In this document: positions 234-5,113 of the stretch, in pieces
Layout: every line of letters starts with the position of its first letter
How positions within the stretch are numbered: the stretch's first letter is position 1
Source of the DNA: an uncultured Lachnospiraceae bacterium
GTDB taxonomy: Bacteria; Bacillota_A; Clostridia; Lachnospirales; Lachnospiraceae
Assembly (NCBI GenBank): GCA_902795985.1
Contig: CADBNG010000234.1
Location: 1 to 6,369 of the forward strand
Direction: 5' to 3'
Length of the DNA: 6,369 nt
Notes under the pieces: generated by a model
Database searches by the model: none
Seen by the model: only the letters and a program-made list of their open reading frames with translations
Told to the model about the DNA's origin: nothing
Program-made: the position numbers and the translations under genes

Positions 234-1280
234 TTACATATAGCCCTTCTTTTCGAACTGAAGCGGAAGACGGGTGATCTCGTCGCGGTTGATGCCGAAA
301 TGCTCGACGTTGTAGTCGTCGATGGCCGCGAAGATGGCTTCGTAAACGCCGTCGTAAACGGATCCGGGGCCGCCCTGCGCGATGCAGGGGATGTAGCCCT
401 TCGGGGAATTCTGGGCCAGGACCTCGTAAACACGGCCGTGAATCTCTTCCGCATCCCAGTCGGGTTTGTCGTAGTCCGCGCCGTCGAAGCCGCCCATGAA
501 ACCGATCTTGCCGCACCATTCCTTGGTGAGTTCGGGCAGGTTGTTGGAGGACATGCAGCCCTGCCATACGTCGATGCCCATTTCGATCAGGTAAGGAACA
601 AGGGTCACACCGTAGCTGTCGGAGTGATGGATGACCAGCTCACAGCCATGGGTCTTGTAGTATCCGTAGATCTCTTTATAAGCGGGTACATAGAACTCTT
701 CCCACATATCGGGCTTCATGAAGGTGCTGGTTCTGGAACCGAAGTCGTCATGATGGAAGAGGGCGTCGGGCTGCAGCTTGCTGCAGATCAGCTCGGCCAT
801 TTCCAGCTCATAATCCGTGATATATCTGATGAGGTCATGCATCTCATCCGGATACTCATACAGGTTCATCAGAGTGTTCTGGATTTCTCCGAGGTGGTGG
901 CACTGCTCGAATACGCCGGGAGCCCAGAAAAGAGCCTTGTAGGCCTGAGTGGTGTCAACGGAATCGTAGATCGCGCGGAGCATATCCCAGTCTTCCTGCG
1001 GGAATAAGGTGCTCGGCTTTTTCACATATTCTTTCCAGTCCTCGATATCCTTGATAACGATCTTATCCGGGGTATGGACAGGGAAAGCACCGGGTGAACC
1101 TTCCGGCCAGCTGTTGGTGATACCCCATGCATTGACGATGTTTTCCTGGCCCGGGGTCGGAGAGGGGCTGTGGAAATATCCGGGATGCATGCAGAGCCGG
1201 AGAGCTTCGTACTGGTTTGCGAAACGATCGGGGTTTCCTCCGATGGCAGCCTGATAATAGTTTTCTCTTGCTGTTAACAT
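234..1280 (-). CDS. Uroporphyrinogen decarboxylase (URO-D) family protein, methyltransferase-like
   Basis: A complete 348-residue cytoplasmic protein of the URO-D fold, which includes haem-pathway HemE and the corrinoid methyltransferases of the MtaA/CmuA/veratrol type. It looks like the second group: HemE's arginine-rich N-terminus is absent. Visible family features are HHDDFGSRTSTFMKPDMWEEF (about 176-196; a DD-x-G segment followed by the usual 'P-W-F-P' region), HHSDS at 218-222 in place of the H-x-C-G zinc motif, GIDVWQG at 235-241, GGFDG at 263-267, and a late cysteine at 299 (YIPCIAQGG) where MtaA-type proteins have a third zinc ligand. The start is fixed by AGGAG at 1288-1292, seven bases before the ATG. 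It is divergent from the glycosyltransferase and followed by its own terminator. No corrinoid protein, activator or second methyltransferase lies beside it, so the methyl donor is unknown. Family is certain; enzyme activity is inferred. Confidence 0.9.
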   Translation of the reverse strand: MLTARENYYQAAIGGNPDRFANQYEALRLCMHPGYFHSPSPTPGQENIVNAWGITNSWPEGSPGAFPVHTPDKIVIKDIEDWKEYVKKPSTLFPQEDWDMLRAIYDSVDTTQAYKALFWAPGVFEQCHHLGEIQNTLMNLYEYPDEMHDLIRYITDYELEMAELICSKLQPDALFHHDDFGSRTSTFMKPDMWEEFYVPAYKEIYGYYKTHGCELVIHHSDSYGVTLVPYLIEMGIDVWQGCMSSNNLPELTKEWCGKIGFMGGFDGADYDKPDWDAEEIHGRVYEVLAQNSPKGYIPCIAQGGPGSVYDGVYEAIFAAIDDYNVEHFGINRDEITRLPLQFEKKGYM

Positions 1281-4088: not shown

Positions 4089-4105
4089 TTTCACACAATA
4101 ACAGT

Positions 4106-4137
4106 CCGGCAGACGGGATTTGCGTCCTGCCTGCCGG
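4106..4137 (-). terminator. Hairpin between lipoprotein and LtrA genes, possible weak terminator
   Basis: CCGGCAG (4106-4112) pairs with CTGCCGG (4131-4137). After an A/C mismatch five more pairs form (4114-4118 with 4125-4129, one G-U), closing a 6-base loop. On the minus strand it is followed by ACTGTTATTG, which is U-rich but not a proper U-tract. It may partly end the lipoprotein transcript, or sit in the LtrA leader if the two are cotranscribed. An 11-base direct repeat, CTGCCGGGAAA, starts in its right arm (4131-4141) and recurs at 4157-4167. Confidence 0.5.
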
Positions 4138-4194
4138 GAAAAGAATTCTCAAGCAGCTGCCGGGAAAGCGTTACCCGGAACCGTTCGTTCGGAA

Positions 4195-5067
4195 TTATTC
4201 GTTAAAAGAAGCAAGATCCAGCGTATAGATATTCAGCAGTTCCGGGTCGCCGTTTAACGGTGCGTAAACGAAGACCAGGCACATATTGCTGACCGGGTTC
4301 TGTGTCACCAGCGTCTGACGCGCCAGGACGGCGTAATTCGTTCCGGATACGATCTGGCTTCCAAGAAGGGCCAGGGGAACATAATCGGCGCCGAGCAGTC
4401 CGTCCATCACCTTGTCATAAGCCGTTACGGCCGGAGCGGGCAGGTTTACAGCCGGCGCTTCAGCATAGACGGTCCAGCCGCCGACAAGCTCCCCGGCCGC
4501 TTCCGGCTGATTGTCGACCATGGAGTAGTCGCCAAGATCGAAATCTTTAACGCCGGTGATTTCCGCGTTGCCATTCAGATCGGCATAGACAATAACGACT
4601 TTCAGGGCAGTAACGGGTTCCCGGGTTACGGTTGTCCCGCGGCAGAGGAACATGTGATTGGTTCCGGCAACGACCTGGCTGCCCAGATAGGCGAGAATTT
4701 CAAAATCCTGACCGACAAAACCTTCGCAGGCCTTGTCGAAAGCAGCCTGTGCCTCTTCCGGAACATAGCCCGTCGTTTCGTCCGAATTGACGGACCATCC
4801 GCCGGTCACGGCAGGAGGTACGACAGAGGCTTCGGCAGATCCCTGCGTTTCCGGTTCTTCGGAAACGGAAGAGACTTCGGAAGCTTCTTCCGCGGGAGCG
4901 GAGGTTTCTTTCACCGAAGAGGAAGCCGCAGCGGTTTCCGCAGGAGCAGAGGCTTCTTTCGACGCGGAGGAAGCGGCGGCCGGTTCCGCGGCTTTCTGGC
5001 TGCCGCAGGCGGCCAGGGCGGAGGCCAGTGTCAGGATGGTGATCAGTGCGATGATTCTGTTTTTCAT
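4195..5067 (-). CDS. Surface lipoprotein with two tandem cystatin-like domains
   Basis: A 290-residue secreted lipoprotein. The signal peptide is KNR plus a hydrophobic core ending in the lipobox LAAC, so C21 would be lipidated and the protein held on the outer face of the membrane. Residues 22-88 form an Ala/Ser/Glu-rich linker with a 16-residue unit repeated twice (30-45, 46-61). Two homologous domains follow (89-178 and 196-285), in register without a gap at an offset of 107 residues. Both start GGW, then a helix (AFDKACEGFVG; AYDKVMDGLLG), then a strand-turn-strand, LGSQVVAGTN (128-137) and LGSQIVSGTN (235-244), then VYADLNG and VYAPLNG, ending FDL and LDL. Q-x-V-x-G is the papain-binding loop of cystatins, and cystatins also have an N-terminal Gly. 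The Pro-Trp of the second cystatin loop is not seen. Cysteine-protease inhibition is therefore inference. Start chosen at 5067 by AGAGGA and the signal peptide, not an in-frame ATG at 5100. Confidence 0.88.
   Translation of the reverse strand: MKNRIIALITILTLASALAACGSQKAAEPAAASSASKEASAPAETAAASSSVKETSAPAEEASEVSSVSEEPETQGSAEASVVPPAVTGGWSVNSDETTGYVPEEAQAAFDKACEGFVGQDFEILAYLGSQVVAGTNHMFLCRGTTVTREPVTALKVVIVYADLNGNAEITGVKDFDLGDYSMVDNQPEAAGELVGGWTVYAEAPAVNLPAPAVTAYDKVMDGLLGADYVPLALLGSQIVSGTNYAVLARQTLVTQNPVSNMCLVFVYAPLNGDPELLNIYTLDLASFNE
4213..4803 (-). repeat. Internal duplication: two 90-residue domains
   Basis: Domain 1 is encoded at 4534-4803 and domain 2 at 4213-4482, a 321-base period. Aligned pairs include GGW/GGW, FDK/YDK, LGSQVVAGTN/LGSQIVSGTN, REPV/QNPV, VYADLNG/VYAPLNG and FDL/LDL, with no insertion or deletion across the domain. 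The copies differ at many positions, so this is an old duplication and not an assembly artefact. Confidence 0.9.
4885..4980 (-). repeat. 48-base tandem repeat in the lipoprotein linker
   Basis: Two adjacent units (4933-4980 and 4885-4932) encode AAASSASKEASAPAET and AAASSSVKETSAPAEE, identical at 12 of 16 residues. The unit gives a flexible, low-complexity spacer between the lipid anchor and the folded domains. Such a repeat can change copy number by slippage or recombination. Confidence 0.8.
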
Positions 5068-5073
5068 GTTAAA

Positions 5074-5080
5074 GTCCTCT
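5074..5080 (-). promoter_or_regulatory. Ribosome binding site that fixes the lipoprotein start
   Basis: AGAGGAC on the minus strand lies six bases upstream of the ATG at 5065-5067. The upstream in-frame ATG at 5098-5100 would add MTEQPRKEDFN before the signal peptide and has no such site. Position 5067 is therefore the start. Confidence 0.8.
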
Positions 5081-5113
5081 TTTCTTGGTTGTTCGGTCAT
5101 TTGTATTCCTGCA

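Follow-up and report, generated by a model that had tools for sequence, protein, structure and literature searches.

Positions 4195 to 5067 of a 6,369-nucleotide stretch of DNA from an uncultured Lachnospiraceae bacterium (GenBank assembly GCA_902795985.1, contig CADBNG010000234.1; the whole stretch is called the window here) hold, on the minus strand, an open reading frame (ORF) for a 290-residue protein. A sequence-only reading of the window had proposed a lipid-anchored protein with two cystatin-like domains at this position. Both elements were recovered: the sequence LAAC, with Cys21, stands ahead of a stalk, and a family profile matches twice, at residues 89-182 and 196-289, in domains of about 93 residues each that are 42% identical to one another. 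The product is probably a surface-tethered, two-headed cystatin that would act against papain-family (C1) cysteine proteases, enzymes that animals and plants inhibit with proteins of this fold, and would thereby shield the cell from them.

The start codon is taken to be the ATG at 5067 because a ribosome-binding site, AGAGGA (5075-5080), lies 7 bases upstream; the start at 5100 would give 301 residues. Both domains have the same order: GGW, a helix, LGSQ(V/I)V(A/S)GTN, and a second hairpin (DLNG or PLNG). The motifs quoted in the sequence-only reading, GGW with LGSQVVAGTN or LGSQIVSGTN, are indeed present in the respective domains. Table 1 lists the features.

Table 1. Features of the cystatin-like gene and its product in the window, followed by sigma-linked loci of relatives.
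Feature	Position	Strand	Basis
Coding sequence, 290-aa tandem cystatin-domain lipoprotein (predicted)	4195..5067	-	ORF, homologues, ribosome-binding site AGAGGA
Lipoprotein signal peptide, residues 1-20 (predicted)	5008..5067	-	hydrophobic segment ending LAA/C; model helix 5-18
Cys21, predicted lipidation site	5005..5007	-	column C21 nearly invariant
Ala/Ser/Glu/Pro-rich stalk, residues 22-88, predicted disordered	4804..5004	-	block-mean pLDDT (predicted local distance difference test) 46-62
Cystatin-like domain 1, residues 89-178	4534..4803	-	profile 89-182, 132 bits; AlphaFold (AF2) models; fold searches
N-terminal trunk of domain 1, Gly89-Gly90	4798..4803	-	columns 1 and 2 among most conserved
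First hairpin (L1) of domain 1, Gln131-Val-Val-Ala-Gly135	4663..4677	-	turn at Ala134; Q131, V133, G135 invariant
Second hairpin (L2) of domain 1, Asp163-Leu164-Asn-Gly-Asn167	4567..4581	-	between strands 153-162 and 168-175
Cystatin-like domain 2, residues 196-285	4213..4482	-	profile 196-289, 105 bits; AF2
N-terminal trunk of domain 2, Gly196-Gly197	4477..4482	-	G196 invariant, G197 nearly so
First hairpin (L1) of domain 2, Gln238-Ile-Val-Ser-Gly242	4342..4356	-	between strands 227-239 and 242-253
Second hairpin (L2) of domain 2, Pro270-Leu271-Asn-Gly-Asp274	4246..4260	-	between strands 260-270 and 276-282
Promoter-like site TGCACA-17-TATAAT, ~100 bases upstream of start codon	5167..5195	-	10/12 matches
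Cystatin, ECF sigma and anti-sigma-like genes	L066:6222-8735; L080:3516-5544; L081:6282-7995

A Predicted Cystatin Fold

In AF2 models of the domain pair, and in those of domain 1 by itself, a helix and four main strands take up cystatin topology. The predicted order (helix-strand-L1-strand-strand-L2-strand), with the helix wrapped by an antiparallel sheet, is that of the cystatin superfamily (I25). In the model the V-A-G of the first hairpin sits at the tip, with the turn at Ala134, so that QVVAG occupies a hairpin and not a buried strand, as the sequence-only reading had anticipated. The fold search that it proposed as a check also agreed: searches with domain 1 alone (Foldseek, VIA) are led by the cystatin superfamily.

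Profile comparison likewise linked the family to known cystatins and stefins, which supplied 20/26 matches (E <= 10), 22/23 (E <= 1), and 22/28 (E <= 1) in searches of family profiles against PDB sequences. The remaining matches were lipoprotein signals, chorismate mutases, and a few strays; one lipoprotein signal, at E 0.0017, ranked second in the 26-match search. PF00031, the Pfam cystatin family named in the sequence-only reading, is the Pfam family reaching most relatives (77/109 at E <= 1), and one relative, P0013, exceeds its cut-off (25.9 vs 22.2 bits). Within the single-domain alignment it was matched in just 10/102. The family is largely missed by Pfam and almost unannotated. Membership of the window protein in the cystatin superfamily is supported by its predicted fold, its Gly-Gly trunk, and the placement of Q-x-V-x-G at a hairpin tip.

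Conservation on a Putative Protease-Binding Edge

A protein search returned 346 homologues (E <= 0.001), and the domain counts rest on the best 120 of these plus the window protein, 121 in all. Two domains are present in 118/121, three in 2, and four in 1. The lipobox pattern occurs in 110/121; in the window protein, LAAC21 with its signal peptide has the form of a bacterial lipoprotein, predicting lipidation.

The motif Q-x-V-x-G is kept in 121/121 first and 116/121 second domains, and the Gly-Gly trunk in 110/121 of each; three of the five second domains without Q-x-V-x-G belong to the close relatives P0002-P0004. Among 106 non-redundant domains, the lowest-entropy columns are G1, Q43, G47, N49, V45, and G2. 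The homologue search gathers proteins that share five-residue words with the query and thereby favours the motif, so conservation was redone on domains found by profile in whole genomes. Nineteen two-domain proteins were obtained in this way (a protein of genome G646, L048, was counted as single-domain, its second domain undetected). The motif is present in 17 first and 16 second domains: 14 proteins have it in both, 19/19 in at least one, and 5/19 lack it in one. The seven most conserved columns of 37 non-redundant genome-derived domains are G1, N49, G47, Q43, V45, G78, and G2. In cystatins, the N-terminal trunk and first hairpin enter the protease cleft (PMC9986714). Judged from these alignments, conservation is concentrated on what would be the protease-binding edge of a cystatin, also in the genome-derived sequences.

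The second hairpin carries Leu in 216/246 domains and Trp, at or near that position, in 1/246; Leu is found in 24/37 of the non-redundant genome-derived domains. The sequence-only reading had counted the missing Pro-Trp against inhibition. This objection falls away, because a conserved Leu is found there in stefins, Trp being the residue of true cystatins (PMC9986714), and because most family domains bear Leu too. A span of 15 residues separates the aligned positions in 222/246 domains, with no large central insert. Stefins lack disulfides, and on this point the family is mixed: one Cys is present in 158 of the 246 domains, none in 12, and two or more in 76; no second conserved Cys column appears in the alignment, and in the window protein domain 1 has two Cys and domain 2 has one.

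These features bear on what kind of protein this is. That it represents a separate bacterial fold, resembling QVVAG by convergence, is scarcely credible, since fold, topology, motif placement, Gly-Gly trunk, second-hairpin Leu, and match lists all agree on a cystatin. What weighs against a cystatin is the modest strength of the matches: a best Foldseek E of 0.012 for domain 1 and 3.7e-4 for the whole model; a best E of 0.00037 in the PDB profile searches, for a tick cystatin; and the window protein's own failure to match PF00031 in Pfam. The suggestion that GGW and LNG define a separate family survives in part: they mark a bacterial subfamily, but one that lies within the cystatin superfamily. 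It is very improbable that the protein is a cystatin-like inhibitor of another class, acting on legumain (C13) or on an aspartic protease in the manner of cystatin E/M or squash SQAPI. SQAPI (PF16845) ranks second among Pfam families by number of relatives matched (48/109 at E <= 1), and both inhibitors appear among the fold matches; however, the SQAPI scores obtained fall below the cut-off (17.6 vs 31 bits for P0013), and the columns conserved in the family correspond to the C1 wedge. Two other assignments were rejected: true cystatin (type 2, I25B), because Trp is absent from the second hairpin and the four Cys of the two type 2 disulfides are absent; and kininogen (type 3, I25C), because the second hairpin and central span are stefin-like, unlike type 2 repeats. 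A chance or non-coding origin was rejected too, as all of the best 120 of the 346 homologues conserve the reading frame and retain Q-x-V-x-G in domain 1 if not in both.

A Model for Surface-Tethered Inhibition

The protein most likely would act like a stefin on a stalk. Its signal peptide would direct export, with Cys21 becoming lipidated, and the 67-residue stalk, predicted to be disordered, would keep the two cystatin-fold domains off the membrane. Each domain would offer the tripartite wedge of the stefins: the Gly-Gly trunk, the QxVxG first hairpin, and the Leu-bearing second hairpin. This wedge is conserved in the alignments and predicted in the models; presumably it is also what contacts the protease, most likely by plugging the active-site cleft of C1 enzymes. 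One molecule could then hold two protease molecules, as kininogens do (PMC10380794). The likeliest target would be an enzyme outside the cell, such as a cathepsin-like gut protease from diet, host, or protozoa. The bacterium's own secreted C1 enzymes may be a secondary target in some species.

An Exported Family with a Patchy Distribution

Shorter relatives were found with a profile of 43 domains, which matched 683 proteins at E <= 0.01; this search and that for the 346 homologues used different length limits. Among the best 120 of the 683, 105 are single-domain and 15 match in two stretches; a lipobox pattern precedes the domain in 25. Thirteen of the shorter proteins were inspected by eye: six (P0137, P0146, P0151, P0155, P0166, and P0190) read as a signal peptide followed by one domain, and the rest are mostly fragmentary. 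Three members, P0049, P0097, and L064, contain S-layer domains. The common theme is export, as read from these sequences, with predicted lipid or S-layer anchoring in many members.

Matches at E <= 1e-6 occur in 20/295 genomes of the order of genome G001, 11/391 of its class, and 3/398 of its phylum, so that the distribution within Clostridia is patchy. A scan of genome contigs with the relative P0080 as query gave one locus. Bacterial stefins had been found before, including in Clostridia, with a distribution described as extremely limited and patchy (Kordis and Turk 2009, PMC2784779). Three members of 92-93 residues (L014, L016, and L017) are without an evident signal peptide, and may correspond to the cytosolic stefins that the 2009 survey found in bacteria. 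A further match (G302:C1:3753565-3753801, L015) holds four TAA codons and is possibly a decayed copy.

Carriage by phages or plasmids was considered and rejected. Phage sequences gave no family match; the single locus from a scan of viral contigs aligned with nothing but the signal peptide (residues 1-21); and the plasmid search gave two weak matches, CP012852.1 and NZ_AP025306.1. These are Persicobacter and Aureibacter replicons whose encoded stretches are about 36% identical to the family.

Gene Neighbourhoods

Twenty-two stretches were compared: the window, L002, and 20 others, from 21/30 carrier genomes of the order and class scans. (The simple gene caller skipped the cystatin ORF in L071, and contig ends shorten several stretches.) No general partner gene was found in the 22, and five that share neighbours look like one clade; a conserved operon was rejected on these grounds. 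In the window, the neighbours are LtrA-like, glycosyltransferase, URO-D-like, histidine phosphatase, and zinc-ribbon genes. The URO-D-like protein (237-1280, minus strand) weakly resembles corrinoid methyltransferases.

The promoter-like site in Table 1 comes from a scan that found three such sites against 2.2 expected, which is about chance level. A search of Rfam at gathering scores found no structured RNA. The interval from the cystatin gene to its downstream LtrA-like neighbour (4095-4200) contains a GC-rich hairpin (z -2.5) without a T-tract, and the terminator scan called no terminator there on the strand of the cystatin gene.

Foreign Proteases, Own Proteases, or Sensing

If the protein inhibits C1 enzymes, the question is whose. 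One alternative is that its role is to restrain the papain-family proteases that the bacterium itself secretes and to keep the cell surface clear of them. C1 genes are indeed commoner in carriers than in non-carriers of the order (7/20 vs 32/275; Fisher p 0.009, an optimistic value because the genomes are related and the counts not tree-corrected). Dockerin, taken to stand for a fibre-degrading secretome, shows no enrichment (11/20 carriers vs 153/275), so such a secretome does not explain the difference. The class sample is consistent with the order (5/11 carriers vs 3/20 non-carriers), albeit small: the non-carriers are 20 of 380, and the match in carrier G302 is interrupted by stops. In genome G646 (L063:7524-13023), a gene for a C1 protease that also bears lectin-like and dockerin domains is found some 3 kb away from the cystatin gene, but genes for HSP90 and cyclophilin intervene, and hence the two do not form an operon. 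(The second domain of this cystatin gene is degenerate.) Nor are the carriers independent, since L072-L076 share neighbours and look like a single clade, and two of the seven C1 matches are short and weak (G398, 1.3e-6; G434, 6.6e-7). Moreover, Kordis and Turk deemed endogenous regulation unlikely, as chagasins fill that role (PMC2784779). In 13/20 carriers the C1 search gave nothing at E <= 1e-5, which makes control of own enzymes unlikely as a general role and the main target probably foreign. Papain-like enzymes arrive with ingested plant tissue. The rumen ciliate Entodinium caudatum shows high expression of C01A cathepsins (PMC6925433). These two sources, together with the carriers mostly lacking a detected C1 gene, favour a foreign target.

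The other alternative is that the cystatin fold serves sensing or binding rather than inhibition, as a surface ligand or protease sensor tied to a circuit of an extracytoplasmic function (ECF) sigma factor and its anti-sigma factor. In 3/22 neighbourhoods (Table 1), the cystatin gene is immediately followed by a pair of genes, one for an ECF sigma factor and one for a protein resembling an anti-sigma factor, in which a single hydrophobic segment is apparent. Furthermore, some cystatin proteins (P0104, P0111, P0117, P0118, and that of L066) are fusions whose C-terminal domain is homologous to the anti-sigma-like proteins: its profile matches those of L081, L066, and L080 at E 4e-23, 3e-21, and 2e-9, and also matches the cystatin proteins in L067 and L077. 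P0104 scores just under the cut-off for DUF4367 (21.3 vs 22.1 bits). However, a profile of the three sigma factors found no other adjacent to a cystatin gene in the 22 stretches, window included (the contig stops just downstream of the gene in L068, L074, and L076), so the case for a sigma circuit does not extend to the family as a whole. The anti-sigma label itself rests on position, the look of the sequence, and one sub-threshold match (20.6 vs 100 bits), and conservation of the inhibitory edge would be needless in a pure sensor. The ECF sigma association is real but confined to a minority and absent from the window; as an account of what the protein does, sensing in place of inhibition is improbable.

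Inhibition of foreign C1 proteases from a surface tether would, if true, be a bacterial counter-measure to the cathepsin-like enzymes of animal guts. The family is sizeable, exported, and often anchored, in contrast to the earlier report of extremely limited bacterial cystatins. The sigma link in a subset offers a route to what the carrier cells respond to. A bolder picture, doubtful as a whole, is that the exported stefins of gut Clostridia make up a large family, so far unannotated, with single and tandem members, many of them tethered by lipid or S-layer domains, which would shield the cells from cathepsins of diet, host, or ciliates. In some lineages the family would be wired, through the shared outer domain, to the ECF sigma/anti-sigma pair, forming an envelope circuit that senses or answers papain-type attack. 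A 2012 review called for experimental data on the role of bacterial cystatins (PMC3594739), and no biochemical test of one appeared in the literature consulted.

Comparison with Known Inhibitors

The stefins (type 1, MEROPS I25A) have in common with this family the Gly-Gly trunk, the QxVxG first hairpin, Leu in the second hairpin, and the lack of a large central insert. They are single-domain and intracellular, whereas the window protein has a signal peptide, predicted lipidation, a stalk, and two domains. Secretion and tandem domains put it outside the strict definition of a stefin, and it is best described as belonging to a stefin-like branch of the cystatin superfamily, one that is secreted and anchored.

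Kininogens and plant multicystatins also have several cystatin domains per chain, but these are type 2 or plant cystatin domains, and neither group is known to have a lipid or S-layer anchor. Chagasin and bacterial ICP (I42) have an immunoglobulin-like fold unrelated to that of cystatins. They too are bacterial C1 protease inhibitors (PMC2784779), the activity that the window protein would share. The Polaribacter three-domain cystatin fusion is likewise bacterial, with repeated cystatin domains; it differs in coming from Bacteroidetes and from the cystatin lineage, in having three domains, and in being fused to another gene (PMC2784779).

The CyL-stefins, such as Fasciola FhCyLS-2 (PDB 6I1M, rank 3 in Foldseek), likewise combine a stefin-type body with a secretion signal and QVVAG; they differ in being animal and single-domain, with two disulfides and, as described in PMC9986714, no mention of a membrane anchor. 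In the 2009 survey, the main text has no occurrence of the word lipoprotein, and a supplement legend refers to the gain of a signal peptide by the stefins of some taxa (PMC2784779). A literature search with mostly open-access coverage, and thus weak evidence of absence, found no report of bacterial stefins with a lipid anchor, an S-layer anchor, or tandem domains. Since bacterial stefins as such were described in 2009, the novelty here lies in secretion, tandem domains, and lipid or S-layer anchoring.
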